From a virus, in the IMG/VR virus record IMGVR_UViG_3300032086_003797, positions 1-64,000 of that record: a stretch of DNA of 64,000 nucleotides, one strand, 5' to 3'. Both the position numbers and the translations under genes were made by a program. Positions 2,644-52,600 of this stretch are shown here, in pieces. Position 1 is the stretch's first letter, and each line of letters begins with the position of its first letter. Below the pieces are notes generated by a model. It was not told the origin of the DNA. It was given only the letters and a program-made list of their open reading frames with translations, and searched no databases.

Positions 2644-2853
2644 ATGAAATATAAAGTAAAGCCAGGTGATTTAGTGCAGAGCAACATTTTCAACAAGAAG
2701 GGTTCTGGTTCATATGGACTTGTTATGGGTCCATACGGAATCCCAGGATACTGGAGTGTAAAGTGGTGTGATAGTGATTGGGAGCTTAGTGAACAAATAG
2801 TGGGAATCTATGAAGTTCACGAAAAAGACATCGTAGTGGTGTCTAGAGCATGA
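2644..2853 (+). CDS. PGDLV-family small protein, array member 1
   Basis: A 69-residue protein with the family signature near its start (VKPGDLV), a mid YGLVMGP strand and a VKWCDSDW strand. The pattern GDLV-x(n)-GLV-x(n)-V.V.W suggests a small SH3-like beta-barrel, as in KOW or Tudor-type folds; this is inference from strand pattern. It opens the tandem array and its stop overlaps member 2 by ATGA (2850-2853). No sigma70-like promoter is evident in the 25-nt gap upstream, so it may be read from the lipoprotein transcript. Confidence 0.75.
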   Translation: MKYKVKPGDLVQSNIFNKKGSGSYGLVMGPYGIPGYWSVKWCDSDWELSEQIVGIYEVHEKDIVVVSRA

Positions 2854-3059
2854 GAGATGGAGATCTGGTCAGATATAGAATATGTACTTGGCATGTTGAG
2901 CCTAAAAAATATACTGACTGGCAGATGGGTCTTCTCTTGAAATATGATAAGCTAATGAAGATTGCAGAAATAATAAGCCCTAATGGTGACCTAGTACGAG
3001 TTCGAGCCGCCGACGTTCAGCTTGTTCAGCGATCAAAAACAAAAAAGAAATTTACTTGA
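2850..3059 (+). CDS. PGDLV-family small protein, array member 2
   Basis: 69 residues, beginning MRDGDLVRYR, then a MGLLLKYD strand and a long VRAADVQLV strand, with a basic tail (RSKTKKKFT). It is a divergent member of the PGDLV array: Pro is lost but GDLV is kept. Start codon ATG overlaps the preceding stop. The -35 box of the next promoter lies in its last codons and stop. Confidence 0.7.
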   Translation: MRDGDLVRYRICTWHVEPKKYTDWQMGLLLKYDKLMKIAEIISPNGDLVRVRAADVQLVQRSKTKKKFT

Positions 3060-3083
3060 CATACAGCTTATCCGTGCTATTAT
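3056..3083 (+). promoter_or_regulatory. sigma70-like promoter P1 in the small-gene array
   Basis: TTGACA at 3056-3061, a 16-nt spacer, and TATTAT at 3078-3083. The stretch from the -10 box through the Shine-Dalgarno site (3078-3097) is identical over 20 nt to the corresponding part of promoter P2 at 4113-4140, which supports a duplicated promoter/RBS module. It should drive the gene at 3104 and members after it, probably early because it looks like a host sigma70 site. Confidence 0.75.
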
Positions 3084-3103
3084 AAATTGTAAGGAGATAA
3101 GTT

Positions 3104-3355
3104 GTGTTGTCAGACATGCTTCGTAAAAAAATCAAACTGGTAGGTAAGTCACGTCACGGTAAAAACCGTGTTCGTGAGCAAGGCGCTCTGTGGCGTGTTG
3201 TTGGCGAATCTTTGAAGGTACACTTCAAGTCAAGCGCCCCAGGACCATTCCTTCTGCTTGAGTCGGAAGAGAATGAGGGACCACATGGTTTCCATGCTCG
3301 TTGGGTTAGCCTTCGAGATGACCCTGACTTTTCAGTAGAGGTTATTGGTGAATAA
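3104..3355 (+). CDS. conserved small phage protein inside the PGDLV array
   Basis: 83 residues from GTG 3104, with AAGGAGA six nt upstream. It is not a PGDLV paralogue: it begins MLSDMLRKKIKLVGKSRHGK and has WRVV and ARWVSL strands. I recall similar short proteins (VGKSRHGKNR motif) in other phages but no function. It is the first gene after promoter P1. It overlaps the next gene by 11 nt, which couples their translation. Confidence 0.65.
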   Translation: MLSDMLRKKIKLVGKSRHGKNRVREQGALWRVVGESLKVHFKSSAPGPFLLLESEENEGPHGFHARWVSLRDDPDFSVEVIGE

Positions 3356-3557
3356 GAACGAGTGGCGTAAAAGCCTAAAGGCTGGCGACCTCGTGATGAT
3401 GAAGTCTGGGGGGATGGCTCTCCTTACAGAGGTGTTCTTTCGGTTTCCCGAGACGGACCCAGCCTATCCCCATATCAAGATGATCTATTGTGATGACAAC
3501 TCATTAGGCAGTTGCAGTGCATGGAGAGTAAAGGAGTTAGTCAATGCAGGTCGGTGA
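3345..3557 (+). CDS. PGDLV-family small protein, array member 3
   Basis: 70 residues from GTG 3345. The signature is shifted inward (LKAGDLVMMKSGG at 11-23) after a short polar leader. It ends in the array's characteristic C-terminal form (VKELVNAGR), whose codons carry the ribosome site (AAGGAG) and ATG of member 4. The start is chosen because it overlaps the upstream gene and lies in the only frame reaching the AGDLV motif. Confidence 0.7.
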   Translation: MVNKNEWRKSLKAGDLVMMKSGGMALLTEVFFRFPETDPAYPHIKMIYCDDNSLGSCSAWRVKELVNAGR

Positions 3558-3708
3558 TTTAGTAAAACACAGGTTCACTAGAGAATTACATCTCGTAGTT
3601 GAGGTAAGGAAAATCAAAGGAAAGGTGGGATATGTTCACTTGTCCGATCATAATCCTCAACAAGTCTTCTACCCAAGCGATTTGGAGGTGCTCAGTGAAG
3701 CCAGGTGA
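3544..3708 (+). CDS. PGDLV-family small protein, array member 4
   Basis: A 54-residue protein from ATG 3544, one of the shortest in the array. It begins MQVGDLVKHRF, has a central VEVRKIKGKVGYVHL hairpin, and ends LEVLSEAR. Its last codons hold GGAGGTG and the GTG start of member 5, so the tail is dual-coding. The strong match of both ends to the other paralogues supports it as a real gene. Confidence 0.7.
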   Translation: MQVGDLVKHRFTRELHLVVEVRKIKGKVGYVHLSDHNPQQVFYPSDLEVLSEAR

Positions 3709-3715
3709 TTTGGTT
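3682..3715 (+). repeat. array junction repeat 1
   Basis: A conserved junction encoding, in one frame, the C-terminus LEVLSEAR-stop of member 4 and, shifted, the GTG start and KPGDLV of member 5. It contains the Shine-Dalgarno GGAGGTG at 3684-3690. Near-identical copies lie at 4508, 4828 and 5152, so it is a direct repeat that could support recombination between cassettes. Confidence 0.7.
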
Positions 3716-3898
3716 CAGCCTGATTTCCAATCAGAGGTTGTGGCAAAGTGGGGCTCAGCGCCCGACCAGCTTGGGTTGGTTTTGTCATATCCTGAAGTCA
3801 AGAACCACGGAACAACTTGTGTAAAGGTTAGCTGGCTCGGTTGGGATTTAGAAGAATACTATTCTGTTCATCATTTAGTGATGGTCAATGAATCCTAA
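3695..3898 (+). CDS. PGDLV-family small protein, array member 5
   Basis: The true start is GTG 3695, giving MKPGDLVQPDF at the N-terminus and 67 residues in all; a longer frame opening at 3632 only overlaps member 4. Strands include QLGLVLSYP and CVKVSWLGWDLEEY, the usual GLV and VxVxW positions. GGAGGTG lies 4 nt upstream of the start. It ends on TAA 3896-3898, overlapping member 6 by 11 nt. Confidence 0.75.
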   Translation: MKPGDLVQPDFQSEVVAKWGSAPDQLGLVLSYPEVKNHGTTCVKVSWLGWDLEEYYSVHHLVMVNES

Positions 3899-4103
3899 GT
3901 TTTGGTTTAATCTTGGCGACCTCGTATCATTTACATCTCGCCGCTTAACCGAGGATTATATTGATGATCATGTCCTGACTGGCATTGTAATCGCCCAGCG
4001 TTTTATGTTTACTGCCGATAATAAGTTCTTAGTTAAAACTCCAGAAAAAGATTACTGGGTTTCGAGACCTGCCCTAACTTTAATTTCCAGAGCAAATAAA
4101 TAA
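3888..4103 (+). CDS. PGDLV-family small protein, array member 6
   Basis: 71 residues from ATG 3888. The signature is NLGDLVSFTSRR at 8-19, followed by a TGIVIAQRF strand and a DYWVSRPALTLISR tail. It overlaps member 5 and is followed by 53 nt carrying promoter P2, so it closes the first transcription unit of the array. Confidence 0.7.
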   Translation: MNPKFWFNLGDLVSFTSRRLTEDYIDDHVLTGIVIAQRFMFTADNKFLVKTPEKDYWVSRPALTLISRANK

Positions 4104-4112
4104 TATATTTTA

Positions 4113-4140
4113 TTGACAAACACTCTATCCATGGTATTAT
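4113..4140 (+). promoter_or_regulatory. sigma70-like promoter P2 in the small-gene array
   Basis: TTGACA at 4113-4118, 16-nt spacer, TATTAT at 4135-4140, then a Shine-Dalgarno AAGGAGAG at 4148-4155. Spacing and the 20 nt from the -10 box through the ribosome site are identical to P1 at 3056-3083, and several spacer bases match too. It starts the second transcription unit of the array. Confidence 0.75.
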
Positions 4141-4159
4141 AAATTGTAAGGAGAGAGTG

Positions 4160-4351
4160 ATGAGTGGTGATTTCAATATGTTTCATGGTGAGCGTGTCAA
4201 ATACAAAGGGCAACACCCGCTTTTGCAAGACCAAAAAGGTAAAGTTGTTGGCGGCGATATGCACGAGTTCGTTATCAAATGGGATAACTTGGAAGTTCCA
4301 AGAGCACACAGCCCGTACAATATTGTGTGGCTAGTGGATAGTGGGGAATGA
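4160..4351 (+). CDS. PGDLV-like small protein, array member 7
   Basis: 63 residues from ATG 4160; a GTG three nt earlier is also possible. The GDLV motif has become GERVKYKG (9-16), followed by QKGKVVGGDMHEFVIKWDNLEV, which keeps the expected strand order of the family. It is the first gene after promoter P2 and overlaps member 8 by ATGA at 4348-4351. Assignment to the family rests on pattern and position. Confidence 0.6.
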   Translation: MSGDFNMFHGERVKYKGQHPLLQDQKGKVVGGDMHEFVIKWDNLEVPRAHSPYNIVWLVDSGE

Positions 4352-4533
4352 TGATATCATCAGCGGGTCACGGCGTTGGCGCTCTAGTCAACTTTGAGTT
4401 CAAGATGAGCAAAGAGTTGGGTATGATTGTGCGTCAAAGCAAAGGATACTATTGGATGGTCAAGCGTCTCAGTGACGGTCAGAACCTACTAATCCTTGAG
4501 CGAGACATGGAGGTGGTCAGTGAAGCAAGGTGA
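4348..4533 (+). CDS. PGDLV-like small protein, array member 8
   Basis: 61 residues beginning MMISSAGHGVGALVNFEF, with VGALVNF in the GDLV position, an ELGMIVRQSKGYYWMVKRL hairpin, and the family C-terminus DMEVVSEAR. The tail codons contain GGAGGTG and the GTG start of member 9. Two adjacent ATG codons (4348, 4351) could start it. Confidence 0.65.
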   Translation: MMISSAGHGVGALVNFEFKMSKELGMIVRQSKGYYWMVKRLSDGQNLLILERDMEVVSEAR

Positions 4534-4541
4534 TTTGGTAA
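4508..4541 (+). repeat. array junction repeat 2
   Basis: Second copy of the dual-coding junction: MEVVSEAR-stop in one frame and GTG plus KQGDLV in the other, with GGAGGTG as the ribosome site. It differs from junction 1 by a few substitutions only. Confidence 0.65.
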
Positions 4542-4699
4542 AATATGACCACCCTTCCAACCCCATGCTCGGGCTGGTCAAGTCTGTGAAGCCCGACCGC
4601 ACATGGGGTAAAATTAGTGTGCTTGTCCAGTGGTGTAATAATAGCAACACTGAAGAATGTGTTTGGCAAGAAGATTTGAAAGTGGTGAGTGGTCAATGA
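4520..4699 (+). CDS. PGDLV-family small protein, array member 9
   Basis: 59 residues from GTG 4520 (MKQGDLVKYDHPS). MLGLVKSVKP and ISVLVQWCNN fill the GLV and VxVxW positions, and the C-terminus is DLKVVSGQ. I chose GTG 4520 over an upstream in-frame ATG at 4496 because it gives the family N-terminus and has GGAGGTG four nt upstream. Confidence 0.75.
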   Translation: MKQGDLVKYDHPSNPMLGLVKSVKPDRTWGKISVLVQWCNNSNTEECVWQEDLKVVSGQ

Positions 4700-4854
4700 A
4701 AGAAGGTGATCTGGTTCGGCACCTTGAGGATAACCAACTGGGCGTTGTTGTTCTCGCTTGGGGTGTTATGGATGTTGTAGAGGTGCTCTGGGACGACGGG
4801 GAAACCAGGGGTCAGAACACCTGCGAGTTGGAGTTACTCAATGAAGCCAGGTGA
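4696..4854 (+). CDS. PGDLV-family small protein, array member 10
   Basis: 52 residues from ATG 4696 (MKEGDLVRHLEDN), overlapping the previous stop by ATGA. QLGVVVLAWG and VVEVLWDDG are the core strands and the tail is LELLNEAR. The frame is open further upstream, but ATG 4696 matches the paralogues. This is among the smallest complete members and shows the minimal unit. Confidence 0.75.
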   Translation: MKEGDLVRHLEDNQLGVVVLAWGVMDVVEVLWDDGETRGQNTCELELLNEAR

Positions 4855-4861
4855 TTTGGTA
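4828..4861 (+). repeat. array junction repeat 3
   Basis: Third copy of the dual-coding junction, here with ATG as the downstream start: LELLNEAR-stop overlapping MKPGDLV. From the start codon through GATTTGGT it matches junction 1 except for the start-codon base. Confidence 0.65.
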
Positions 4862-5002
4862 AAACGACAACAAGGCTGGATGGGCTGGGAGAAACAGCAA
4901 CTTGGAGTTGTAGTCTGGGTAGACCGAGCAGTTGTCAAGGTTCTGTGGTCTGACGACTATGGTAGTTTTGCTCATCCTATTACCTCACTGGAAGTGATTT
5001 AA
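4841..5002 (+). CDS. PGDLV-family small protein, array member 11
   Basis: 53 residues from ATG 4841 (MKPGDLVKRQQG). QQLGVVVWVDRAVVKVLWSD forms the central hairpin and the tail is SLEVI. It overlaps member 10 by 14 nt and its stop TAA shares one base with the ATG of member 12. Members 10 and 11 are close in the LGVVV...VEVLW core, suggesting recent duplication. Confidence 0.75.
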   Translation: MKPGDLVKRQQGWMGWEKQQLGVVVWVDRAVVKVLWSDDYGSFAHPITSLEVI

Positions 5003-5178
5003 TGAAGGTCGGAACACTAGTTCAGTTCACAGCCTACAATGTAAGTCTGGGCATTGGCATTGTCCTTCGCCACGATGACGAAAAGCCAGATTATATGTGG
5101 GTCTCAAATGAAAAGTTGGGTCCCCAGTTCGTACCCAAGAATTGTACGATGTTGGAGGTGTTGAATGAAGCCAGGTGA
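5002..5178 (+). CDS. PGDLV-family small protein, array member 12
   Basis: 58 residues from ATG 5002 (MKVGTLVQFTAYN). LGIGIVLRHDD holds the GLV position, and the tail is MLEVLNEAR, whose codons encode GGAGGTG and the ATG of member 13. D is replaced by T in GDLV. Overlap with the previous stop is one base (TAATG). Confidence 0.7.
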   Translation: MKVGTLVQFTAYNVSLGIGIVLRHDDEKPDYMWVSNEKLGPQFVPKNCTMLEVLNEAR

Positions 5179-5187
5179 TTTAGTTCG
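5152..5187 (+). repeat. array junction repeat 4
   Basis: Fourth copy of the junction: LEVLNEAR-stop overlapping MKPGDLV with GGAGGTG upstream. Together the four copies define a direct repeat of roughly 33 nt at variable spacing of about 320-830 nt. Confidence 0.65.
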
Positions 5188-5362
5188 GATCAGGAAGTCA
5201 GCGATCACTGCTTGGTCCACGCTATGGTTCATTGATCTTGCTGAACGCAAAGCGCCACTGCTTGTAATGGAAGAACTTAATAAGAGCCACTGGAAAGTAA
5301 TGAGACCCAATGGAACTACTTTCTTTGTTGAAGAACAAAACCTAACTAAGAGGATGTGGTAA
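5165..5362 (+). CDS. PGDLV-family small protein, array member 13
   Basis: 65 residues from ATG 5165 (MKPGDLVRIRKSA). It has a WSTLWFIDLAERKAPLLVM hairpin and a WKVMRPNGTTFFVEEQNL end. It lacks the LEVLSEAR tail and instead overlaps member 14 through TAATG at 5360-5364. Confidence 0.75.
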   Translation: MKPGDLVRIRKSAITAWSTLWFIDLAERKAPLLVMEELNKSHWKVMRPNGTTFFVEEQNLTKRMW

Positions 5363-5559
5363 TGGAGCCGACTTATGTTAATTACAGAGTAGGTGATCTG
5401 GTAGTTAATCCTACAAGTGGAGTTATTGGCGTGATTACAAGTCATAATTATTGGGCGGAGGATGAATATCTTGGCACCGAAGAAGAAGTTGTTGACGTCA
5501 TGTTTGGCGGACACATCTCAAAACAATATCCAGTAAGATATATTAATAAAGTACGATGA
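5362..5559 (+). CDS. PGDLV-family small protein, array member 14
   Basis: 65 residues from ATG 5362; a GTG at 5356 is the alternative start. YRVGDLVVNPTSGVIGVITS is the signature plus first hairpin, followed by VVDVMFGGHISKQY. Its stop overlaps member 15 by ATGA. Confidence 0.7.
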   Translation: MEPTYVNYRVGDLVVNPTSGVIGVITSHNYWAEDEYLGTEEEVVDVMFGGHISKQYPVRYINKVR

Positions 5560-5792
5560 AAAAAGAAACCTACAATACTCGACTGAAAACAAACCCCGAG
5601 AACATTCCTATCGGTAGTTTGCTTCGGGTCAAAAAACATTGTCGGAATAATGTTACTATTCGCCAGAATGGCGAGTATGGTCTTTTGGCACCAAGCATTA
5701 ATGGGAAGTATATTACACATGATGTTGTATTTCCCAATGGAACCCGATGTATTTTTATGCCCTTGAACTGGGAGGTGATTAGTTATGCATAG
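5556..5792 (+). CDS. divergent PGDLV-like small protein, array member 15
   Basis: 78 residues. The motif is degenerate (IPIGSLLRVKKH, 17-28) after a longer polar N-terminus. A YGLLAPSINGKYI strand pair and a WEVISYA tail remain. The tail codons GGGAGGTG serve as ribosome site for member 16. Family membership is likely but weaker than for members with GDLV. Confidence 0.6.
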   Translation: MKKETYNTRLKTNPENIPIGSLLRVKKHCRNNVTIRQNGEYGLLAPSINGKYITHDVVFPNGTRCIFMPLNWEVISYA

Positions 5793-6009
5793 GATAGAAA
5801 AAATACAGCAGCCTGGAACCCTTTTGCGATCCCGTTGGGGCAGCAACTATGGTAAGTTAGCCTTAGTCCTTGCTGAATCTTACGCTGGTCCGAGACCAAG
5901 TAATGGATACCCACCTCGCCGCTGGGTGAAAATGCAGTGGTGCTCAACTGGCGAAGTGTTTGAAGAATCGTTAGTAAATGTGAATAATTGTTGGCGTATT
6001 GTAGAATAG
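5785..6009 (+). CDS. divergent PGDLV-like small protein, array member 16
   Basis: 74 residues from ATG 5785, overlapping member 15. QQPGTLLRSRWG occupies the signature position, then KLALVLAES and WVKMQWCSTGE supply the core strands. The end of the gene overlaps the -35 region of promoter P3. Confidence 0.6.
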   Translation: MHRIEKIQQPGTLLRSRWGSNYGKLALVLAESYAGPRPSNGYPPRRWVKMQWCSTGEVFEESLVNVNNCWRIVE

Positions 6010-6020
6010 TGTGTTATACT
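5991..6020 (+). promoter_or_regulatory. possible sigma70-like promoter P3
   Basis: TTGGCG at 5991-5996, 18-nt spacer, TATACT at 6015-6020, then GAGGAGG at 6029-6035 before ATG 6040. The -10 is good and the -35 fair. It sits in the only real gap of this part of the array. Confidence 0.5.
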
Positions 6021-6039
6021 ATTAGTGTGAGGAGGTTCT

Positions 6040-6243
6040 ATGGCGATCATGCCAAAGTTCAAGCCAGGTCAGTTAGTAGAGTATTATGTCAACGATGACT
6101 GTACTATGATGGGTCTAGTCAAGACCACTCGTGCAGCACCACGCCGTGGCACGCCAGCGTTTGTTCTGGTCGAGTGGTGTGGCGATCATGATCAAAAAGA
6201 AGAATATGTTCCACAGTCAAAACTAAGATTGGTAGAAGACTAA
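6040..6243 (+). CDS. PGDLV-family small protein, array member 17
   Basis: 67 residues from ATG 6040 with GAGGAGG upstream. FKPGQLVEYYV is the signature (Q for D), then MMGLVKTTR and FVLVEWCGD. The tail is SKLRLVED. Its stop TAA overlaps the ATG of the next gene by one base. It ends the array. Confidence 0.7.
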   Translation: MAIMPKFKPGQLVEYYVNDDCTMMGLVKTTRAAPRRGTPAFVLVEWCGDHDQKEEYVPQSKLRLVED

Positions 6244-6755
6244 TGAATATTTTTGCTATCGAAGGCGATGAAGAGACAGGACAGATTGACTGGGAGAAGT
6301 CAGCACAGTCGCAGGACAACTTGCGTGTGGTCAAGATGATCCTAGAGTCTTGTCAGATTATGTCCACCGTTATCAACGAGCAGGGTCTCAAGGCTCCTTA
6401 CCGCTCATTCAATCCCAAGCACCCGTCGTGCCTGTGGGCTGCGGAGTCAGCAAGTAACTATATGAATCTTGCTTTACACTGCCAGGCAATGATCGACGAG
6501 TACGAGCATCGGTTCAACAAGACTCACAAGTGTCAAGCAATTCTTCAGACACTTATCGAAATGTTTGACCCAGGGTTGTTCCCCACTACGGAGTGTACCC
6601 CGCTCCGCCTGGCAATGCCTGACGAGTTTCGATCCGACAATCCTGTCGTGTCTTACCGCAAGTTCTATGCTTCCAAGCCACGCTTACGATACCCAGCAGA
6701 CAAGATTCCATCTTGGGTATATGAATACCGCACAGAACCATTCGAGGTAGTCTAA
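6243..6755 (+). CDS. conserved phage protein, unknown function
   Basis: 170 residues. The segment NLRVVKMILESCQIMST, followed by HPSCLWAAESASNYMNL and later MPDEF...SYRKFY and PSWV, is a pattern I recognise from uncharacterised proteins of many T4-like and cyanobacterial phages. No function is established to my knowledge. Conserved His, Cys, Trp and Glu residues could form an active site, but this is speculation. It is coupled to the end of the PGDLV array and precedes a late-type element at 6771. Confidence 0.7.
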   Translation: MNIFAIEGDEETGQIDWEKSAQSQDNLRVVKMILESCQIMSTVINEQGLKAPYRSFNPKHPSCLWAAESASNYMNLALHCQAMIDEYEHRFNKTHKCQAILQTLIEMFDPGLFPTTECTPLRLAMPDEFRSDNPVVSYRKFYASKPRLRYPADKIPSWVYEYRTEPFEVV

Positions 6756-6770
6756 ACTTTTACTCTTGCA

Positions 6771-6779
6771 CTATTTATT
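6771..6779 (+). promoter_or_regulatory. CTATTTAYT element (candidate late promoter), lysis cassette
   Basis: CTATTTATT in the 44-nt gap before ATG 6800, 29 nt upstream of the start, preceded by TTTACT. Same element as at 15617, 18609, 21330, 25155, 26248, 53098, 57783 and 60210. Confidence 0.45.
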
Positions 6780-6799
6780 CCTACTGGAGGCATAATAAG

Positions 6800-6985
6800 A
6801 TGCAAGAAAAATTAGACAAAGTATTAGGTAAATGGGCTTCACGCAAATTGATTGTTTGGGGCACAGCAACTGCCTTTTTAGGATTTGGCATGTTAGCCAG
6901 CGATGATTGGGTTGCCGTATCGTTAGCTTACATTGGATTGCAAGGCGCTGCCGACATAGCGTCCAAATGGAAGCATGGTAAATAA
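6800..6985 (+). CDS. small membrane protein, probable holin
   Basis: 61 residues with a short charged N-terminus (KLDKVLGKWASRK) and two hydrophobic segments around residues 18-32 and 37-50, then a basic tail. The size, topology and position just before two more membrane proteins fit a holin in a lysis cassette. There is no holin-specific motif to prove it. GGAGG lies upstream of ATG 6800. Confidence 0.5.
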   Translation: MQEKLDKVLGKWASRKLIVWGTATAFLGFGMLASDDWVAVSLAYIGLQGAADIASKWKHGK

Positions 6986-7292
6986 GCTAAAGTATTGGTT
7001 TCAGAAAACTGGGTGGAAAGTAGTTATAGCGGTTGTTACAGCCGCTGCTATTTGTTTGTACCTCTATAAGCTAGTTAAGCCAGCAAATAAAATGACACAA
7101 GCCGCTGATCAAATAATAGAAAAGGCGCAAGTTCAAGCTGAAATCGCAACGATCAAAGGCGAATTAGAAAAAGATAAGATTGGCGCAGTCAAAAAAATAT
7201 TCCAAACAAAGCTTAACAAAAATAAAGAAATAGTAGATACTAAGGAAAGACTAAGCGATTTGATTCGTTTAAGAGAAAGTTTAGATTTATGA
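6975..7292 (+). CDS. membrane-anchored coiled-coil protein, possible inner spanin
   Basis: 105 residues: basic N-terminus, one transmembrane segment at about 16-35, then a long Lys/Glu-rich helix likely to form a coiled coil. This is the architecture of Rz-type inner-membrane spanins, which help rupture the outer membrane in Gram-negative hosts. It overlaps the holin candidate by 11 nt and the next gene by ATGA. Spanin is an inference from topology and order. Confidence 0.45.
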   Translation: MVNKLKYWFQKTGWKVVIAVVTAAAICLYLYKLVKPANKMTQAADQIIEKAQVQAEIATIKGELEKDKIGAVKKIFQTKLNKNKEIVDTKERLSDLIRLRESLDL

Positions 7293-7654
7293 TCGCACTA
7301 TTATTACTACTACCACTTTTGGCGGCACCAGTGTCAGAATTTAGAGACGTGCCAGTCATAACTGAAGTAGAAGGACAAGAGCACGTTGGCATCTTGGTTA
7401 GCGAAAACAATTATAGAAAGTTCCTACAACTCAAAATTGAAACTGACGCTAAGATTGCTGAATGCAGTATAGATAAGCGGGTATGCACGCAGGTTCGTGA
7501 TGGTTATTTAGTAGCTATCAAGGACCTTAAAAAGGTGCTCGACAAAAGGGATACTTGGTTTATGAGAAACCGAGGAGCCTTGGGCATGGTGACTGGTTTA
7601 CTAATAGGGACAGGACTATCTGTAGGAATAGTTCATGCAGTTTATCAGAAATGA
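7289..7654 (+). CDS. exported or membrane protein of the lysis cassette
   Basis: 121 residues with an N-terminal signal-like segment (MIALLLLLPLLAAPVS) and a C-terminal hydrophobic glycine-rich segment (about 96-117). The middle is charged and has two cysteines (residues 55 and 62) that could pair in the periplasm. It has no lipobox. It is coupled by ATGA to both neighbours. It may work with the coiled-coil protein upstream in lysis; function unknown. Confidence 0.5.
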   Translation: MIALLLLLPLLAAPVSEFRDVPVITEVEGQEHVGILVSENNYRKFLQLKIETDAKIAECSIDKRVCTQVRDGYLVAIKDLKKVLDKRDTWFMRNRGALGMVTGLLIGTGLSVGIVHAVYQK

Positions 7655-8058
7655 AAAAAGATTACGATCACATTGCTGCTGTTGAAAAAGCCATATCAGA
7701 AAAGTATGGTAAAGATACAGCCCAGGACATCCGTGGTGACTGGTCAGAGCAGAAAGAAAAAGAATACTTAGAGCAGATTAAGCTCATGACTAAAAAGTCA
7801 GACGCACACAAGAAGACTACTACTCAAATAGCGGAGAACACTTTTATATCTACAAAGGCGACACAACACAAGCAGAATAACATATGCCCAGTGTGCAAAA
7901 CATATTCGTTTTCCATAAAAGACGACCTATATATGAATAGATTTTCTTGTTGCCATGATTGCTATATTGATTTTGTGGTTGATCGAGAAGATCGATGGAA
8001 AGATGGCTGGCGTCCTGATGAGGACAGAATTGAACACGCTATGTATAGGAGAAAATAA
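7651..8058 (+). CDS. small zinc-ribbon protein
   Basis: 135 residues from ATG 7651, chosen because it overlaps the previous stop by ATGA. The N-terminal half is charged and helical. A CPVC...CCHDC motif at about residues 81-105 suggests a zinc ribbon. I do not recognise a family. The position, two genes before the terminase, leaves a packaging role possible but unproven. Confidence 0.6.
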   Translation: MKKDYDHIAAVEKAISEKYGKDTAQDIRGDWSEQKEKEYLEQIKLMTKKSDAHKKTTTQIAENTFISTKATQHKQNNICPVCKTYSFSIKDDLYMNRFSCCHDCYIDFVVDREDRWKDGWRPDEDRIEHAMYRRK

Positions 8059-40845: not shown

Positions 40846-42369
40846 ATGACCGATCAAAGGTTGACAGAAGAAGATAGCTTTTCTAAGTTTGGCAAAAGCT
40901 TTCAAGAGAAATTGGGTAAGTTGATCTTACTTGATCGCTCATTCGCTAATCAGATGACTGAAGTGCTGGATATCAAGTTTCTAGAACTTCGATATTTGCA
41001 GGCATTTGTAGAACTCATTTTTCAGTACAAAGAGAAGTACAGTGTCCACCCAACATTTGAAACAATGGTTTCGGTTATTAGAACTGAGATGGATGACTAT
41101 CCCGATGTAGTACGCAAGCAGGTGATCGAATACCTTTCTAAGCTGAAAACTAATCAAATAAGTGATGAAGATTCTGATTTTGTCAAGGAGAAGTCGTTAG
41201 ACTTCTGCAAGAAGCAAAAACTCAAAGAAGCCATCCTTAAATCCGTGGGCTTGTTGCAGACGTCATCCTTTGACGAGATCCATAAGGTTATTGATACAGC
41301 CCTCAAGCTTGGTCTGGATGATAGTCATGGTCATGATTTTGTCCAAGACTTTGAACAAAGATATATTATGAAGGCTAGAGATCCTGTGATTACAGCATGG
41401 CAAGAGGTTGACAAGATTACACGAGGTGGTCTTGGCAAGCGAGAGCTTGGTGTAGTTATTGCTCCAACTGGAGCGGGCAAATCAATGGCTCTGGTACACC
41501 TTGGCGCTATGGCAGTTGCTATGGGTAAGACTGTCATGCACTATACTTTGGAGCTAGCAGAAGGAGTGGTGGGAATGCGTTACGATTCTTGTCTCACTAC
41601 GATCCCTCTGTCGAACCTACACGACCATAAAGATAAGATCAAAGAAAAAATTACTACCCTAGATGGGCAGCTAATTATTAAAGAATATCCTACAAAGTCT
41701 GCAACTACAAAGACTTTGGAGTCGTCGCTAGAGAGGCTTCGACAAAGAGGCATTGAGCCCGACATGGTTATTGTCGATTATGCTGATCTGTTGCGCCCTG
41801 TAGCTACTAATTACAGGAGCGAGCATCGCCACAATCTTGAGTCAATTTATGAAGAGTTGCGAGGCATTGGACAGAAATTTGACCTACCAGTTTGGACAGC
41901 CAGCCAAACTAATAGAAGTGGGTTGAATGCGGAGGTTATTACTATGGAATCAATCAGCGAGGCTTTCAACAAATGCTTTGTAGCTGATTTCATTTGCACA
42001 ATCTCCAGAACAGCAGAAGATAAAGTTGAAGGCGGTGGTCGCATGTTTATCGCTAAGAATAGAAACGGACCCGATGGCATCGTCTTTCCAATGGAGATCG
42101 ACACTAGTAGAGTCAAGTTGAGGGTTTTGCAACCAGAGGCTGGCTCGGACCTAAACTCGGTAGTCTCTAGAACCCAGCAGGAACAGAAAGAACACTTGCA
42201 GCAAAAGTATCAAAAGTACAAGAATAAGAAACAGAAGATGCAGGACACAAACAACAACCAGAAGGCAGCAAGTTCGCAGCTTAGTGGATTAAACAAAGAA
42301 GAATTTAGAAAGCTCGCCCAAAAGCAAGCTAACCAACAAGAACAAAAGGAGACTAACGTCAATGTCTGA
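40846..42369 (+). CDS. replicative DNA helicase, DnaB/gp41-like
   Basis: 507 residues. The RecA-like domain has Walker A APTGAGKS (206-213), Walker B DMVIVDYADLL (near 305), and PVWTASQTNRSG (near 350) for motif H3. The N-terminal 170 residues are helical like the DnaB N-domain. It unwinds DNA at the fork. No primase domain is seen here and I find no primase gene in the window. The C-terminal 70 residues are Gln/Lys-rich and probably disordered. It overlaps the ribonucleotide reductase gene by 8 nt. Confidence 0.9.
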   Translation: MTDQRLTEEDSFSKFGKSFQEKLGKLILLDRSFANQMTEVLDIKFLELRYLQAFVELIFQYKEKYSVHPTFETMVSVIRTEMDDYPDVVRKQVIEYLSKLKTNQISDEDSDFVKEKSLDFCKKQKLKEAILKSVGLLQTSSFDEIHKVIDTALKLGLDDSHGHDFVQDFEQRYIMKARDPVITAWQEVDKITRGGLGKRELGVVIAPTGAGKSMALVHLGAMAVAMGKTVMHYTLELAEGVVGMRYDSCLTTIPLSNLHDHKDKIKEKITTLDGQLIIKEYPTKSATTKTLESSLERLRQRGIEPDMVIVDYADLLRPVATNYRSEHRHNLESIYEELRGIGQKFDLPVWTASQTNRSGLNAEVITMESISEAFNKCFVADFICTISRTAEDKVEGGGRMFIAKNRNGPDGIVFPMEIDTSRVKLRVLQPEAGSDLNSVVSRTQQEQKEHLQQKYQKYKNKKQKMQDTNNNQKAASSQLSGLNKEEFRKLAQKQANQQEQKETNVNV

Positions 42370-44233
42370 GCCAGAACTATCAAACAAGATCCTATCTGAT
42401 ATAACAGTTTATATGAAATATGCCAGGTTTTTACCTGAAGAGCAGCGCAGGGAAACGTGGTCAGAATTAGTAACTCGTAATATGAACATGCACATCAAAA
42501 AATACCCCAAGCTGGAAACGGAAATCCGTGAGAAATATCAGCTTGTTTATGATAAGAAGGTACTCCCTTCGATGCGCTCCATGCAGTTCGGCGGAAGACC
42601 GATTGAAATCGCCCCCAATAGAATTTTTAATTGCGCCTATCAACCTATCAACGATTGGCGTGCATTTGGTGAAACCATGTTTCTTCTTTTGGGCGGAACT
42701 GGCGTCGGCTTCTCCGTCCAGAATCATCACATCGAAGAACTACCAGAAATTCGTAAACCTAATCAGAAAAGAACTCGGAGGTACTTAATCAATGATAGTA
42801 TTGAAGGATGGGCTGATGCCGTTAAATATCTTATGCGTAGCTACTTCTATGGCGGCTCGAAGCTACGATTTGATTTTAGTGATATTCGCCCTAAAGGTGC
42901 TCGCCTTGTAACCTCTGGTGGCAAAGCCCCAGGACCTCAGCCCTTGCGTGAGTGCCTGGTGAAGATCGAGGGCTTACTAAGCGAAAAAAGCGATGGTGAC
43001 AAGCTAAGCTCAATTGAGGTGCATGATATTATTTGCCATGTGGCTGATGCTGTCTTGGCTGGCGGCATCCGAAGAGCCGCTTTGATTTCCCTGTTTTCAG
43101 CCGACGATGATGAAATGATTGCAGCCAAGTCGGGCAACTGGTGGGAAACCAGCCCGCAGAGAGGCAGAGCAAACAACTCAGTCGTCTTGTTACGACACAA
43201 GGTTGATGAAGAGTATTTCATGAATCTTTGGGAGAGAATTAAGGCATCGGGAGCAGGCGAGCCAGGCTTTTATCTGTCGAATGATAAGGACTGGGGTACG
43301 AACCCATGCTGTGAAATTGCCCTTCGCCCACACCAATTCTGTAACCTGACTGAGGTCAATGCTAGCAACATTACTAGTCAAGAGGATTTGAATGAAAGAG
43401 TTGAAGCGGCTTCCTTCATCGGTACCCTACAAGCGGGCTACACAGACTTCCATTATCTGCGCCCAGTTTGGCAGCGAACAACTGAAAGAGACGCACTTGT
43501 TGGAGTTTCTCTAACTGGTATCGCATCTGGTCGTGTGCTGGCAGATGGAATTTCCTTGAAAGAAGCATCCCAGAACGTAAAGAAGGAAAATGTTAGAGTG
43601 TCTGAGCTTATTGGGATTCGCCCAGCATCTCGGACTACCTGTGTTAAGCCAGCGGGCACAACGTCCCTTACCCTTGGGACGTCAAGCGGTATTCACGCCT
43701 GGCACAATGATTATTATATTCGACGTCTGCGTGTAGGTAAGAACGAGGCAATTTACACACACCTATCGATTCATCATCCCGAACTTGTAGAAGATGATTA
43801 CTTTAGACCTCATGATACAGCCGTGATCGGGATTCCCCAGAAAGCCCCTGACGGCTCGATCCTAAGAACAGAGTCGGCTTTAGACTTGCTGAAAAGGGTT
43901 AAGAAGGTCACGAAGGAGTGGATTCGCCCAGGTCATCGAACGGGGCAAAACACCCACAACGTCTCAGCCACTATCTCGATCAAGGATGATGAGTGGGAAG
44001 AGGTTGGAAAGTGGATGTGGAAGAACAATGTTAGCTACAATGGACTTAGCGTGCTTCCTGACGATGGTGGCACTTATGTTCAGGCACCGTTTGAGAATTG
44101 CACCAAGGAGCAATACGAAGAGATGGTCAAGTCCCTGTCCTCTTTGGATCTTAGCACCATTGTGGAATTTGATGATAACACTGACCTCAAGGGTGAAGCT
44201 GCTTGTGCTGGCGGAGCTTGTGAAATAACTTAA
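42362..44233 (+). CDS. adenosylcobalamin-dependent (class II) ribonucleotide reductase
   Basis: 623 residues, single-subunit B12-dependent reductase making deoxynucleotides. MRSMQFGGRPIE, NCAYQPINDW, FLLLGGTGVGFSVQ, NPCCEIALRPHQFCNLTEVN (active-site Cys region) and KPAGTTSLTLGTSSGIH are typical of ribonucleoside triphosphate reductases. The C-terminal CAGGACEI carries the redox cysteine pair. Similar enzymes occur in cyanophages. It depends on host or environmental cobalamin. It follows the helicase and precedes a small zinc protein. Confidence 0.93.
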   Translation: MSEPELSNKILSDITVYMKYARFLPEEQRRETWSELVTRNMNMHIKKYPKLETEIREKYQLVYDKKVLPSMRSMQFGGRPIEIAPNRIFNCAYQPINDWRAFGETMFLLLGGTGVGFSVQNHHIEELPEIRKPNQKRTRRYLINDSIEGWADAVKYLMRSYFYGGSKLRFDFSDIRPKGARLVTSGGKAPGPQPLRECLVKIEGLLSEKSDGDKLSSIEVHDIICHVADAVLAGGIRRAALISLFSADDDEMIAAKSGNWWETSPQRGRANNSVVLLRHKVDEEYFMNLWERIKASGAGEPGFYLSNDKDWGTNPCCEIALRPHQFCNLTEVNASNITSQEDLNERVEAASFIGTLQAGYTDFHYLRPVWQRTTERDALVGVSLTGIASGRVLADGISLKEASQNVKKENVRVSELIGIRPASRTTCVKPAGTTSLTLGTSSGIHAWHNDYYIRRLRVGKNEAIYTHLSIHHPELVEDDYFRPHDTAVIGIPQKAPDGSILRTESALDLLKRVKKVTKEWIRPGHRTGQNTHNVSATISIKDDEWEEVGKWMWKNNVSYNGLSVLPDDGGTYVQAPFENCTKEQYEEMVKSLSSLDLSTIVEFDDNTDLKGEAACAGGACEIT

Positions 44234-44513: not shown

Positions 44514-44770
44514 TGAAGCCAGTAAACAGAAGACTAATGGTCGAGCCCTATGAAGAGGAGCAGGACAAAAGCTCTTTCATCATTCCAGAGGAGTACCAAG
44601 AAAAGTCACACATAGCTTATAAGATTACAGCCACTTCTAATGATTGCAGCTTGGGTTTAGACGTAGGCGATATAGTGGTTGCACACAGCACAGACCCAGA
44701 GATTATCCACTATGAGGGTAGGCAGTATCATCTGTTGTTAGAAAATCGTGTGGTTTGTGTGGCTAGCTAG
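44513..44770 (+). CDS. GroES-like co-chaperonin
   Basis: 85 residues from ATG 44513, which overlaps the previous stop (TAATG). MKPVNRRLMVEPYEEE, SFIIPEEYQEKSHIAYKI, GDIVVAHSTDPEIIHYEG and YHLLLENRVVCV follow the GroES beta-barrel, including the FIIPE mobile-loop region. Compared with GroES the roof loop is short. Because the phage also encodes GroEL (63477), it may form a full chaperonin with it, or work with host GroEL as T4 gp31 does. Its stop is shared head-on with the minus-strand gene at 44767. Confidence 0.75.
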   Translation: MKPVNRRLMVEPYEEEQDKSSFIIPEEYQEKSHIAYKITATSNDCSLGLDVGDIVVAHSTDPEIIHYEGRQYHLLLENRVVCVAS

Positions 44771-46020
44771 CCGCCTATACACAGGTCCTCAAATATTTGC
44801 CTGATTTGCAAAAACACTGTTTCTGAATTGGCGGTTGGGGTGAATAGCCTTCTTTGTTCTGCATGTACGCACATGAGGAATGTATTGTGGTGTTCTTGAA
44901 GGGCGAAGACAAAAAGTTCATATCCTCCTGTGATAGCAAAGTTGCTTAACTCATTGCAGGACATCCCGATTTCTGTCTGAGCTTGTTCGTCGGTCATGGT
45001 AATGATAACCTTTTGTGCTCCTGACCTCCAAGAGAAAGGGTACTGATTCATGGTCCAATACATAGCATCTATCGTAGGCTCAAGCCCTGCGCTGGGGGCG
45101 TGCCGAGCATCCTCTAGAATTTGTAAAAACTCATCAGCCCCTACAAAGTTGCTAATAAATTGAGCGTGTCTATGGTGAACTACAATATCCTCATCTCCAC
45201 GGGTGCCCACGATAACTAGTCCAAATCGGAATGTACTAGTGATGGGATCACTCAGCAGTGGCTCAATGCCTCTTATCATTGACTCTATTTCATCATCAAA
45301 CGAACCAGAAATATCGAGAACAAAAACTAAATCTACACCCCGAGAATCAAAACCCTCATCAACTTCCCCATCACAATCATTGTCTAGATTATCGCACACT
45401 TCTTCTTGGGGGATAATTTGCCTATCACAGGGTCCATCAAAGCCACCGTTAGTGCAGTATCGGACACCAGCACGACACTCCCCAACACCCATTGTTCCAG
45501 CGGGTCCTTCATAGCAAACGATAGCAGTAGAATTTGCTATTCCCTCATCTATTGACCCATCGCAGTTGTTGTCTAGTCCATCGCATATCTCATCAGACGG
45601 ACCAATGTGTCCGCTACAGTACACAGCGCCGTTATCGCAGGTCATAACTCCTGGGGTGCAGACCCCAACCCCATAAGAAGTACCCTCTACAAATCCACAC
45701 AACTGATGCTTTTCTGGGTATGATTCGTCTATCTCGCCATCGCAGTCATTATCAATTCCATCGCATATTTCTTCGGAGGGACCTTTGGCACCCGTACACT
45801 CTGACCAGCCTTGAAAGTCGCAGGTTCTTAGTCCATAAGAGCACTGCCCTGGTCTTGCGGGTGGTGGATCTGTGACACCGTTAGGAAAATCTAATCCCTC
45901 GTGGTTGCACAATATTTGCTCACCTGGACGGCACTCAAGCGGCACAAGCTCCTCATCATCAGTACACGACTGACAAAAGACTAGTAAAACAATTATTAAT
46001 AGCTTGGTTATCTTGTCCAT
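44767..46020 (-). CDS. MopE/vWA-domain lipoprotein
   Basis: 417 residues from ATG 46020 on the minus strand (7 codons after a longer open start), giving a clean lipoprotein signal (lipobox around FCQSC, Cys19). Three MopE-type motifs follow, CDGIDNDCDGEIDES, CDGLDNNCDGSIDEG and CDNLDNDCDGEVDEG, each in a Cys-rich repeat. Then a von Willebrand A domain begins DLVFVLDISGSFDDE with the DxSxS MIDAS metal site. Such proteins are surface adhesins or metal-binding proteins in deltaproteobacteria. In a phage it may modify the host surface, block superinfection or bind cells. It meets GroES-like gene tail to tail. Confidence 0.85.
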   Translation of the reverse strand: MDKITKLLIIVLLVFCQSCTDDEELVPLECRPGEQILCNHEGLDFPNGVTDPPPARPGQCSYGLRTCDFQGWSECTGAKGPSEEICDGIDNDCDGEIDESYPEKHQLCGFVEGTSYGVGVCTPGVMTCDNGAVYCSGHIGPSDEICDGLDNNCDGSIDEGIANSTAIVCYEGPAGTMGVGECRAGVRYCTNGGFDGPCDRQIIPQEEVCDNLDNDCDGEVDEGFDSRGVDLVFVLDISGSFDDEIESMIRGIEPLLSDPITSTFRFGLVIVGTRGDEDIVVHHRHAQFISNFVGADEFLQILEDARHAPSAGLEPTIDAMYWTMNQYPFSWRSGAQKVIITMTDEQAQTEIGMSCNELSNFAITGGYELFVFALQEHHNTFLMCVHAEQRRLFTPTANSETVFLQIRQIFEDLCIGG

Positions 46021-46475
46021 TCGGCTACGCTCTCTAAGCAAGCCTTCTGATCATGAAAAAGTTTCATCTTAAACATCTCGCTACCAAGCCAGCTAAAAGA
46101 TAATTGTTTTGCTGGTAGGTCATCGGGAATGTCTGCACTTAATATAATGGGAGGGTTCGCCTCCCTGCCTGGCATTGCGAATGCTAAAAGTAATTGATTT
46201 CCTTTTGAGGTCTGAATCACGCCTCTGATCACGCCAACTCTATTAGCTGCGGGTATGCCTATGGCAATACGAGTCATAGAGTTAGGATTATTATCTAAGG
46301 TGTCTAACGTTTGGATAACCCACAAGCAATTACGTTTTTGACCTTGTAGGTAGTAGGTTGTTTGCTTGGGTATTATGATTTGCGGCGAAGGCTCGGCAAA
46401 AGCAAAAAAAGATATTATAGCAACAAGAGAGACTAATGAAAGTACAGAAGCTAAGACTATAGTTCTTTTGCGCAT
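46008..46475 (-). CDS. exported or membrane-anchored protein, unknown
   Basis: 155 residues. A basic N-terminus and one hydrophobic segment (about 6-27) suggest a signal anchor or signal peptide, followed by a mostly beta domain (YYLQGQKRNCLWVIQTL, ITVIRG-like strands and ending CLESVAEWTR). Two cysteines may pair outside the cytoplasm. It overlaps the vWA gene by 13 nt, so they are co-translated. No family recognised. Confidence 0.55.
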   Translation of the reverse strand: MRKRTIVLASVLSLVSLVAIISFFAFAEPSPQIIIPKQTTYYLQGQKRNCLWVIQTLDTLDNNPNSMTRIAIGIPAANRVGVIRGVIQTSKGNQLLLAFAMPGREANPPIILSADIPDDLPAKQLSFSWLGSEMFKMKLFHDQKACLESVAEWTR

Positions 46476-49007: not shown

Positions 49008-49244
49008 ATGGACATCGGAGATGTTGTTTGGCAGGACCATAACGGTTTATTGAGACTCGGCATAATTAAAAGTATTGCAGAGGGCGATGACTCATGGTCT
49101 AGCCTTAGGATAGATTGGGTGGAAGACGATATGTATGAGTATTGGAATCAGCCCGAACACAGGAAAGAAATTTACCGAGGAGATGAGGTCAGAACAGTTT
49201 GCAAGAACAGATTAAACAAAATCGTTACCGCTGCTTTGATCTAG
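49008..49244 (+). CDS. dispersed PGDLV-like small protein
   Basis: 78 residues. MDIGDVVWQDHNGLLRLGII then SLRIDWVEDD keep the family layout (GD-V-V, LGII, L.IDW) though the KP is lost. It is about 43 kb from the main array and is followed by a different small gene. It is likely a distant paralogue, weaker than array members. Its ATG overlaps the protease region by no bases (1-nt gap). Confidence 0.6.
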   Translation: MDIGDVVWQDHNGLLRLGIIKSIAEGDDSWSSLRIDWVEDDMYEYWNQPEHRKEIYRGDEVRTVCKNRLNKIVTAALI

Positions 49245-49632: not shown

Positions 49633-49658
49633 ATAAAAAAGCAAAGTAAAGGTTGCAC

Positions 49659-52600
49659 ATGACAAAACGAATCGAGAGCAAGATTCCTTTTGTGGGACTC
49701 CACGCCCACTCAGGACTTTCCCCGTTTGATGGCTTAGGTATGCCAGGCGAACATATGGACTTCGCCTTTGAGAATGGGATGAATGCCCACTCGCTTACCG
49801 ACCACGGACACATGAATGGCTTATCCTTCCAGGTTGAGCACCTAAAGAAGATGAGGGCAGATGGAAAAGACTTCAAAGCAATCTATGGTTGTGAAGCTTA
49901 CTTTATCAAGTCACACAAGAAGTGGCGTCAACAGTACGAAGAACACAAAGCCAGTAGCAAGCGGCAAAAGAAAGAAGAGTTTGCTATGGTTGTTGAGGAT
50001 GAGAACCGCCAGAAGAAGTTCAACCCTCTAAACATCCGCAGGCATTTGGTTCTATTGGTTCAGAATCAGGTTGGATTGAGCAACCTCTTCAAGCTTGTAT
50101 CGGACAGTTACCGTCCCGAGAATTTTTATCGCTACCCCCGTATCGACTTTGAGATGTTGGACAAATACAACGAGGGCTTGCTTGTTAGCAGTGCTTGTAT
50201 GTCAGGTCCGCTCTTTGGGGACTTTTGGAAGCACCGTGATCCAGTCACTCACGAGTACGACGCAGACATGGTTTTAGCATCGATGCGGCAGACGATCGGG
50301 GAGTTCCAGGATATCTTTGGCGACAGGTTCTACGGGGAGATCCAGTGGAACGACATTCCAGAGCAGCACATTGTCAATGACCTAATCATCCAAGCCTGTA
50401 CCGAGATGGGCGCAGAGGTTATCAGTACATCCGACAGCCATTACCCACGACCAGAATTGTGGAAGGACCGTGAGATGTACCGCCGTATTGGGTGGGCGGG
50501 CAAAGCTCCTTATGAAGATCAGGACGCTCATAGGCTGCCAGAGTCGGTAGAAGAGATCGGCTATGAGTTATATCCTCGCAACGGGGATCAGATGTGGGAT
50601 GCCTACAAGAAGTACGCAGGTCGATCTAAGGTAGAGTATGATGATGACTTTGTGTTGGCTAGCATTGAGCGCACACATCAGATCGCCTTTGATCGTATCG
50701 AGGACTTCCTACCAGACAGCGAAGTTCGCCTACCAGATTTTGTTGTGCCAGAGGGTAGCACGGCAATGCAGACCCTAACAAAGCAGGCACTCAAGGGGCT
50801 AAAAGATAAAGACCTTAAAGACCAAGAGTATATCGATCGCCTCAAGTATGAGTTGTCGGTTATTAAAGATCGAGGCTTCGCTCAATACTTCTTGACGATG
50901 AAGGCTATTAGCGACAGGGCGCAAGAGGAGATGCTTGTGGGTCTCGGTCGAGGCTCGGCAGCAGGATCATTATTATCCTACGTCCTAGACATTACGCAGG
51001 TCGACCCAATCAAGTATGCTCTCCAGTTTGAGAGGTTCCTAACCAAGGGCGGCAAAGGCTACCCCGACATCGACTTTGATGTTGAGGAGCCAATGCAACT
51101 CAAGGAGCAACTCGCAGAGGAGTGGGGGAAGATCGGCGTCAATGTTGTCCCCATCAGCAACTTCAACACGCTCCAGTTGCGCTCACTCATCAAAGACATT
51201 GGGAAGTTCTATGGCGTCCCGTTTGCAGAGGTGAACAAAGTCACAGGCGTCATGATGAGCGAAGCTACCCCTAAAGCCAAAGCAGCCCACGGTCAGACTG
51301 CGGGCGTTTACGTCCCGACATTTGAGGAAGTGAAGAAGTACAGCGAAACACTCCAGGCGTTCTTCGACAAGTACCCCGAGATCGCAACGCATGTTGACAA
51401 TCTTTTTGGCAATGTTCGTAGTGTGAGTAGGCACGCTGGTGGCATCGTTGTGGCAGAGAACTTGGATAAGCACATGCCATTGATCAACTCAGGTGGTGTG
51501 ATGCAAACCCCGTGGAGCGAGGGGCAGAACGTCAGGCACCTTGAGCCGCTCGGTTTTATTAAGTTTGACCTTCTCGGACTCTCAACTCTCCGTATGATTT
51601 CGGGAGCAATTCGACATGTGCTCAAGCGCCATCACGGCATTGAAGAGCCGACCTTTGAACAGGTCCGTGCCTTTTATGATGAGAAATTACACCCCGATGT
51701 AATCGACTTCGATGACCAAGAAGTCTGGAAAAATATTTTCCATAAAGGTAAGTGGGCGGGCGTTTTCCAGATGACCAGCGGACCAGCCCAGGCTTTCTGC
51801 CAAGAGGCAAAACCAGAGTCGCTTATGGACTTTGCAGCCATCACGGCAATCTTTAGACCAGGACCTTTGTCGGCAAAAGCGGATAAGATGTATATTGCCA
51901 ATAAGAGCAATCCAGATCAGGTAGAGTATAAGCACCCGCTTATCGAGGAGGTGCTAGGGGATACATACGGGTTACTGGTGTTCCAAGAGCAGTTGGCTAT
52001 GCTGGCTCACAAGCTGGGAGATAACATCTCGCTAGACGAAGGGAATCTCCTCCGCAAGGTTCTTACCAAGCGTGGCACAGGCAAAGACAGCGTAAGAGAT
52101 AAGATCTACGCTAAGTTTGTCAAAGGCTGCAATGACAAGGGGCTATCGGAGCAGGTTGCTAAAGACCTTTGGGCAAAGATGGTATTCTTCTCAGGCTACG
52201 GCTTCAACTTGTCACATGCAGTATCTTACGGAGCGGTGTCGTTTCAGTGCGCTTGGTTGGCACACTATTATCCGACCGAATGGATCGCAGCGTTCTTGGA
52301 CAAGGAGCCAGAGAAGCGCAAGATGGCAGCAATCAACACAGCCAAGAAGTTTGGCTTCAACATCGTACCAGCCAGCATCAACAAGTCAGGAATGGTTTGG
52401 GAGATCTCCGAGGATGGGCAAAACCTCATCCAGCCGTTGACTGCGATCAAGGGGTTGGGATCAACAGCTATCCAGCAAATCTTGGACCACCGACCTTTCA
52501 ATACGATTGAGGAGTTTATTTTCAATGAAAACATTACTTACTCCAAACTAAACAAGAAGGCACTGGACGTCCTGGTCCGAAGCCAGGCATTGAATGAGTT

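Follow-up and report, generated by a model that had tools for sequence, protein, structure and literature searches.

A tandem array of small genes with predicted SH3-like folds, many joined by a 14-nt junction embedded in coding sequence, in an uncultured virus

The first 64 kb of the 174,625-bp virus record IMGVR_UViG_3300032086_003797, the stretch analyzed here and referred to as the window, contain 18 small open reading frames (ORFs) arranged head to tail on the + strand from 2644 to 6243; nearly all overlap, and 17 of the 18 belong to one protein family. The main finding, which goes beyond an earlier note on this DNA, is how these genes are joined: many neighbors overlap by exactly 14 nucleotides (nt; ATGAAGCCAGGTGA), in a junction with a built-in Shine-Dalgarno sequence. 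We read the array, with a probability of roughly 0.6, as a series of interchangeable mini-gene cassettes joined at this coding-embedded junction and forming a reassorted set of predicted host-takeover or counter-defence binders.

The joint has the sequence (t)TGGAGGTnnTcA[A/G]TGAAgccaGGTGATTTgGT, which encodes Leu-Glu-Val-x-(Ser/Asn)-Glu-(Ala/Ser)-Arg-stop in the upstream frame and Met-Lys-x-Gly-Asp-Leu-Val in the downstream frame. In cassettes with the 14-nt junction, the terminal Leu-Glu-Val (TTGGAGGTG), the last strand of the fold, encodes the Shine-Dalgarno sequence of the next gene, and the TGA stop of the previous gene is read, in the other frame, out of the Gly-Asp of the first strand (Gly-Asp-Leu-Val, GGTGATTTGGT). 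Because this fixed overlap joins both ends, such cassettes can stand in any succession and need no additional signals; and since many of the genes end with the ribosome-binding site of the next and start with the stop of the last, single genes are swappable between phages. The overlap would also give coupled translation.

The window contains 5 copies of the junction motif with two mismatches or fewer; 100 shuffles yield none. Among 290 neighbor pairs from loci fetched mainly by their flanking gene, and so mostly picked without regard to the junction, 97 share the 14-nt overlap and 31 the common ATGA overlap. When all loci are counted, part of them selected by the junction motif, the 14-nt overlap is found in 509 of the 828 pairs whose downstream gene belongs to the family, versus 81 of the 1,008 other pairs. 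Codon usage is also biased: ahead of a 14-nt junction, GAG encodes the Glu of the terminal Leu-Glu-Val in 98% of 364 cases, compared with 75% in terminal Leu-Glu-Val without the junction and 41% elsewhere, and the Leu codon ends in G in 85% of cases, versus 40% elsewhere. This codon choice indicates that the embedded Shine-Dalgarno sequence is under selection. The genes and junctions of the array, with the letters that denote orthologous types and the ratio of nonsynonymous (dN) to synonymous (dS) divergence where it is informative, are as follows.

2644..2853, +, array gene 1, type T, KPGDLV (family profiles; ortholog in relative L014, dN/dS 0.01)
2850..3059, +, array gene 2, type O, MRDGDLV (leave-one-out and iterated profiles, ortholog comparison)
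3104..3355, +, array gene 3, conserved small ORF outside the family; GTG start, alternative ATG at 3116
3345..3557, +, array gene 4, type G, KAGDLV; start TTG 3345 or GTG 3348 (profiles, ortholog comparison)
3533..3563, +, junction motif between types G and F, 1 mismatch; the 31-nt unit comprises Shine-Dalgarno, start and the preceding gene's stop
3544..3708, +, array gene 5, type F, MQVGDLV...LEVLSEAR (profiles, ortholog comparison)
3684..3714, +, junction motif between types F and E, 14-nt overlap
3695..3898, +, array gene 6, type E, VKPGDLV; the GTG in the junction serves as start, the longest ORF from 3632 being too long
3888..4103, +, array gene 7, type K, NLGDLV (iterated profile, ortholog comparison)
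4157..4351, +, array gene 8, type P, divergent (HGERV); recovered only once relatives are added to the profile, dN/dS 0.03-0.39
4348..4533, +, array gene 9, type N, GVGALV...MEVVSEAR (profiles, ortholog comparison)
4509..4539, +, junction motif between types N and A, 14-nt overlap; left edge of the one-cassette difference from L014
4520..4699, +, array gene 10, type A, VKQGDLV, GTG start; L014 lacks the cassette at this place
4696..4854, +, array gene 11, type L, MKEGDLV; ATG at 4696, 4-nt ATGA overlap, closest copy in L020
4830..4860, +, junction motif between types L and J, 14-nt overlap
4841..5002, +, array gene 12, type J, MKPGDLV (AlphaFold, Foldseek, ortholog comparison)
5002..5178, +, array gene 13, type M, MKVGTLV...LEVLNEAR (profiles, ortholog comparison)
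5154..5184, +, junction motif between types M and D, 14-nt overlap
5165..5362, +, array gene 14, type D, MKPGDLV; opens the 3' block D-H-B-C-A
5356..5559, +, array gene 15, type H, RVGDLV; alternative start ATG at 5362 (iterated profile, gene order)
5556..5792, +, array gene 16, type B, PIGSLL (AlphaFold, Foldseek)
5785..6009, +, array gene 17, type C, QPGTLL (profiles, ortholog comparison)
6040..6243, +, array gene 18, type A, KPGQLV (profiles, ortholog comparison)
6243..6755, +, conserved flanking gene, Pyr_excise / phrog_624, DNA-repair type, outside the family; anchor for syntenic relatives

With the gene at 6243 as anchor, 80 viral contigs were retrieved and about 15 close relatives were compared for gene order. 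The order in the window is T-O-G-F-E-K-P-N-A-L-J-M-D-H-B-C-A, that in L012 is G-J-L-F-E-K-N-I-M-D-H-Q-B-C-A and that in L019 is G-J-E-K-P-L-F-F-I-M-D-H-B-C-A; among these relatives, 30 type pairs are found in both orders, and the 3' block D-H-B-C-A is nearly fixed, with D, B and C among the more constrained genes. The window differs from L014 by one whole cassette of 176 nt (gene 10), cut inside GGTGATTTGGT, and in six gene triples one phage differs from another by exactly one cassette pitch, the gap beginning at most 16 nt from the cassette start. Divergence is likewise cassette-specific: gene 11 has a dS of 0.19 from L020, whose flanking gene has a dS of 1.3, and gene 9 a dS of 0.23 from L016, whose flanking gene has a dS of 0.9. 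Since the nearest relatives of the cassettes differ from each other's and from those of the flanking gene, single cassettes must be exchanged between phages. The array genes compared are under purifying selection (median dN/dS 0.01-0.49). Gene orders and divergence together show gain, loss, permutation and inter-phage exchange of cassettes, several of them cut exactly at the junction.

The earlier note had described the genes as copied and diverged in place, a view that finds no support as stated. Plain tandem duplication with divergence and no exchange would fit the likeness of some neighbors to each other (genes 11 and 12 are 50% identical over 40 residues), the adjacent F-F of L019 and the A-A of several loci. 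We nevertheless consider it very improbable, given that orthologous types occur in other orders and beside other partners, and that the dS of single cassettes is far below that of the flanking gene.

Membership in the family was assessed by profiles. GDLV stands near the N-terminus of 11 of the 18 ORFs, and when leave-one-out profiles are searched against the record's other ORFs, about 1,200 in number, 11 of the 18 rank first and 2 more second, both of the latter behind another family member; the ORFs at 3104, 3888, 4157, 5356 and 5556 fail or score weakly. An iterated profile with relatives added recovers 17 of the 18 at E<0.01, bearing out both the earlier note's count of about 17 small ORFs in tandem and the profile similarity that it expected among them. 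ORF 3104-3355 was rejected as a member (leave-one-out rank 272, family profile E 36); it is a real conserved gene unrelated to the family, present in L014, L019, L012 and others. True starts are sometimes GTG or an internal ATG (3695, 4520, 4696), and several of the longest-ORF starts are too long. Family relatives lie elsewhere in the 174.6-kb record at 86217, 86477, 87029, 87735 and in the C-terminus of 91805, all better matches than the relative proposed earlier at 49008, which is marginal (E 0.04 in this record).

The family is undescribed, as previously proposed. Searches of the array members against Pfam and PHROGs yield no significant or confident assignment: in PHROGs no member scores below 0.018, and the family consensus reaches phrog_9469 and phrog_3261, both of unknown function, at ~1e-3. 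Three queries searched by tblastn in 50,697 cultured phage records give a best E of 0.05, to short hypothetical proteins of Mycobacterium phages; the array region has no DNA similarity to cultured phages, and Rfam has no match in the window.

The closest PDB matches of a 72-member diverse profile are KOW domains of Spt5 (5.5e-5), NusG (8e-4) and uL24 (2e-3). AlphaFold models of the canonical gene 12 (predicted local distance difference test, pLDDT, 87.5) and the divergent gene 16 (pLDDT 83.5) have the same strand order, and both show the five strands and the short 3-10 turn before the last strand of an SH3-like barrel. In Foldseek, gene 12 matches KOW/SH3-like barrels at a query template-modelling (TM) score of 0.7-0.8, together with many uncharacterized small phage proteins; gene 16 matches more weakly, near YorP (its best match), Mib/HERC2 and CarS1, with a best TM of ~0.5. 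The family consensus stays below the gathering cut-off of Pfam KOW (PF00467; 14.9 versus 22.3 bits), and single members score lower. The models and profile matches support a small KOW/SH3-like barrel of ~50-80 residues as the predicted common fold. The earlier inference of an SH3-like barrel therefore holds for the canonical member and, with less support, for the divergent one. Of the 50 top-ranked viral structures in the fold comparison, at least 8 fall in the BFVD accession range A0A516L/M..., so that several of these barrels may belong to a single catalogued phage or to a few.

That Spt5, NusG and uL24 supply the closest profile and fold matches also lends itself to another explanation, in which the proteins are KOW-type modulators of one common machine (RNA polymerase, ribosome or nascent RNA) and the variants serve dosage or host adaptation. 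We consider this unlikely. The net charge of the proteins spans -8 to +7 within the array, which argues against one common nucleic-acid target and fits different partners better; uniform nucleic-acid binding and DNA mimicry are disfavored on the same ground. The KOW likeness is moreover generic for small SH3-like barrels, and gene 16 matches HERC2/Mib, YorP and CarS1 instead. In our preferred reading of the array as a set of binders, each protein would bind a different host or defence protein. Cassettes turn over individually among close relatives, which argues for accessory functions that depend on the host, takeover or counter-defence for example, and the array may be a quickly reassorted set of such proteins.

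Two near-identical candidate promoters lie inside the array.

3056..3083, +, promoter 1, TTGACA-16-TATTAT with TGn extension, then AAATTGTAAGGAGA (motif)
4113..4140, +, promoter 2, same architecture, 80% identity to promoter 1 over 61 nt (motif)

The extended motif, close to TATTATAAATTGTAAGG, recurs at ~66545, 77650, 84180, 91755 and 92545, and these sites at 66-93 kb lie among metabolic and small genes. Since this promoter family is common to metabolic regions, early transcription by the host polymerase is suggested, and the early expression proposed before becomes probable; the two host-type promoters would transcribe the array early. The array also stands just before a T4-like terminase (8625; 42-44% identity to the nearest cultured phages) and a T4-like portal (10199) on the same strand, as would be expected if it encoded late, virion-associated small proteins. 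This we regard as quite improbable in view of the two extended -10 promoters within the array, the recurrence of the promoter family at 66-93 kb close to regions with metabolic or small genes, and the DNA-repair type of the neighbor at 6243.

Several observations weigh against interchangeable cassettes joined and recombined at the junction. The Foldseek E-values are just 0.01-0.1, although this is usual for such small barrels, and the TM of gene 16 is low; in the stretches fetched from several relatives, no sequence close to the promoter motif is present. Some indels and exchanges begin away from the 14-nt junction, and the D-H-B-C-A block uses other junctions. Adjacencies with the 14-nt overlap are less conserved when counted by instance (0.39 versus 0.72, p 6e-8), a count whose instances are not independent of one another; in a test of distinct pairs the difference vanishes (p 0.64). 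As that test fails, the case for the junction as a recombination site rests on the exact indels. It is accordingly a real possibility, if not the one we favor, that the junction is kept just for two protein ends and a ribosome-binding site, while illegitimate recombination and selection for intact genes move the cassettes without its guidance: every conserved junction base has a coding or Shine-Dalgarno reason, and many indel edges lie off the exact junction. Such unguided movement fits poorly with the six exact one-cassette differences that start so close to the cassette start, and with the cut that distinguishes N-A-L from N-L, which falls within shared junction DNA. In the cassette interpretation, homologous or template-switch recombination would occur at this repeated DNA.

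Among known proteins, Spt5, NusG and uL24 resemble the array proteins in profile and fold, but the latter are stand-alone single domains with no attached NGN or ribosomal context. Bacillus subtilis YorP (PDB 2heq), to which gene 16 is similar only at the TM given above, is a small uncharacterized SH3-like protein encoded by a gene of the SPbeta prophage; it is not known to have an array or junction. Integron-type cassettes are defined by an attC-like structured site and an integrase, whereas the array junction is a 31-nt coding motif and not a folded intergenic site. A precedent for a binder with this fold is the Myxococcus antirepressor CarS (PDB 2kss), a small SH3-like protein of bacterial origin, which sequesters a regulator as a tight-binding inhibitor (PMC8156234). 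It matches gene 16 weakly in Foldseek; unlike the array proteins, it has 111 residues, is strongly acidic and is encoded by a single gene, and no sequence relation to the array is shown.

In T4-type phages, PeSL elements, each an early promoter with a stem-loop, mediate the shuffling of small early genes (Arbiol 2010 and Comeau 2014, as summarized in PMC4503421). As far as the cited account describes them, the likeness lies in small early T4-like genes shuffled via a short repeated element that bears expression signals. By the same account, they differ from the array, in which the element is part of the coding sequence and supplies a Shine-Dalgarno site, a start and a stop rather than promoter and terminator, and in which the genes are paralogs of one fold. 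The array does not have a promoter and stem-loop terminator between genes: there are two promoters per 18 genes and no terminator-like stem beside them. The ORFanage of the T4-like cyanophage S-PM2, ~33 tiny ORFans whose order is poorly conserved in metagenomes (PMC4503421), is likewise a run of tiny genes of unstable order, but its genes join mostly by 4-nt overlaps, and the family profile finds no match anywhere in the S-PM2 record. The array has the principle in common with PeSL and ORFanage shuffling; what differs here is that the repeated DNA is inside the genes.

The junction motif is found in at least 119 stretches in viral contigs and in 7 in bacterial genome bins. In 204 loci searched, the iterated profile gives 1,488 matches, 1,296 of them distinct; 68 loci hold at least 10 members, with a maximum of 37 in one locus. 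A T4-like terminase is present in 8 of 20 array-bearing records tested, the others being mostly fragments, and all eight are 56-59% identical to that of the window, which suggests that the carriers form one clade of uncultured T4-like phages. The family profile has no match in four cultured T4-like phages (S-PM2, Mel-JY01, immuto and P-TIM40). Two loci, L216 and L218, fall on the chromosome of a WOR-3 metagenome-assembled genome (CP070664.1), where array-type genes with the junction stand beside ordinary bacterial genes and gaps; this array is either a provirus or an assembly artefact. In L217, a phage-type array (4803-7733) shares its contig with long overlapping ORFs, and the contig is possibly a chimeric bin member.

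A further N-terminal domain (~90-110 residues) is fused to a GDLV barrel in G000 91805-92260, L177 1422-1940 and L180 1210-1713, a fusion that recurs across several phages and could be a clue to function; other long family matches were rejected as domain fusions, being mostly over-extended starts, and only the 91805 type is convincing. Elsewhere, the window encodes two lipoprotein-like proteins with MopE-type metal-binding motifs (NGxDDxCDGxxDE) at 573-2618 and 44767-46041, the former with a Pfam Cu-binding_MopE match. Such motifs are frequent in Myxococcota/Bradymonadota-like bacteria and possibly hint at the host. Further genes encode a 2-thiouracil desulfurase family (PF04463) protein (121-576), a ribonucleotide reductase with B12-dependent (class II) features (42362-44233) and a DNA polymerase III alpha subunit with PHP, NTPase, finger and HHH domains (49653-53087), unusual in a T4-like phage.

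The earlier interpretation was thus right on the array and the fold and incomplete on evolution. More tentatively, an uncultured T4-like clade may have evolved self-joining genes, in which the fold itself supplies stop and ribosome-binding site and recombination at the junction assembles, without an integrase in this reading, phage-specific arsenals of up to 37 different small binders against host and defence targets. If true, a gene would be a complete concatenable unit, and the array would be the phage equivalent of a cassette array. Host-takeover and counter-defence proteins are encoded in large numbers by the small early genes of phages, most of which are unclassified and missed by annotation; here ~1,300 distinct members are recognizable by one profile and one DNA motif. 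The succession of Shine-Dalgarno, start and stop within 31 nt is a tag for mining metagenomes for further members, and the junction provides a specific and testable explanation for the duplication and swapping of such genes with their expression maintained.

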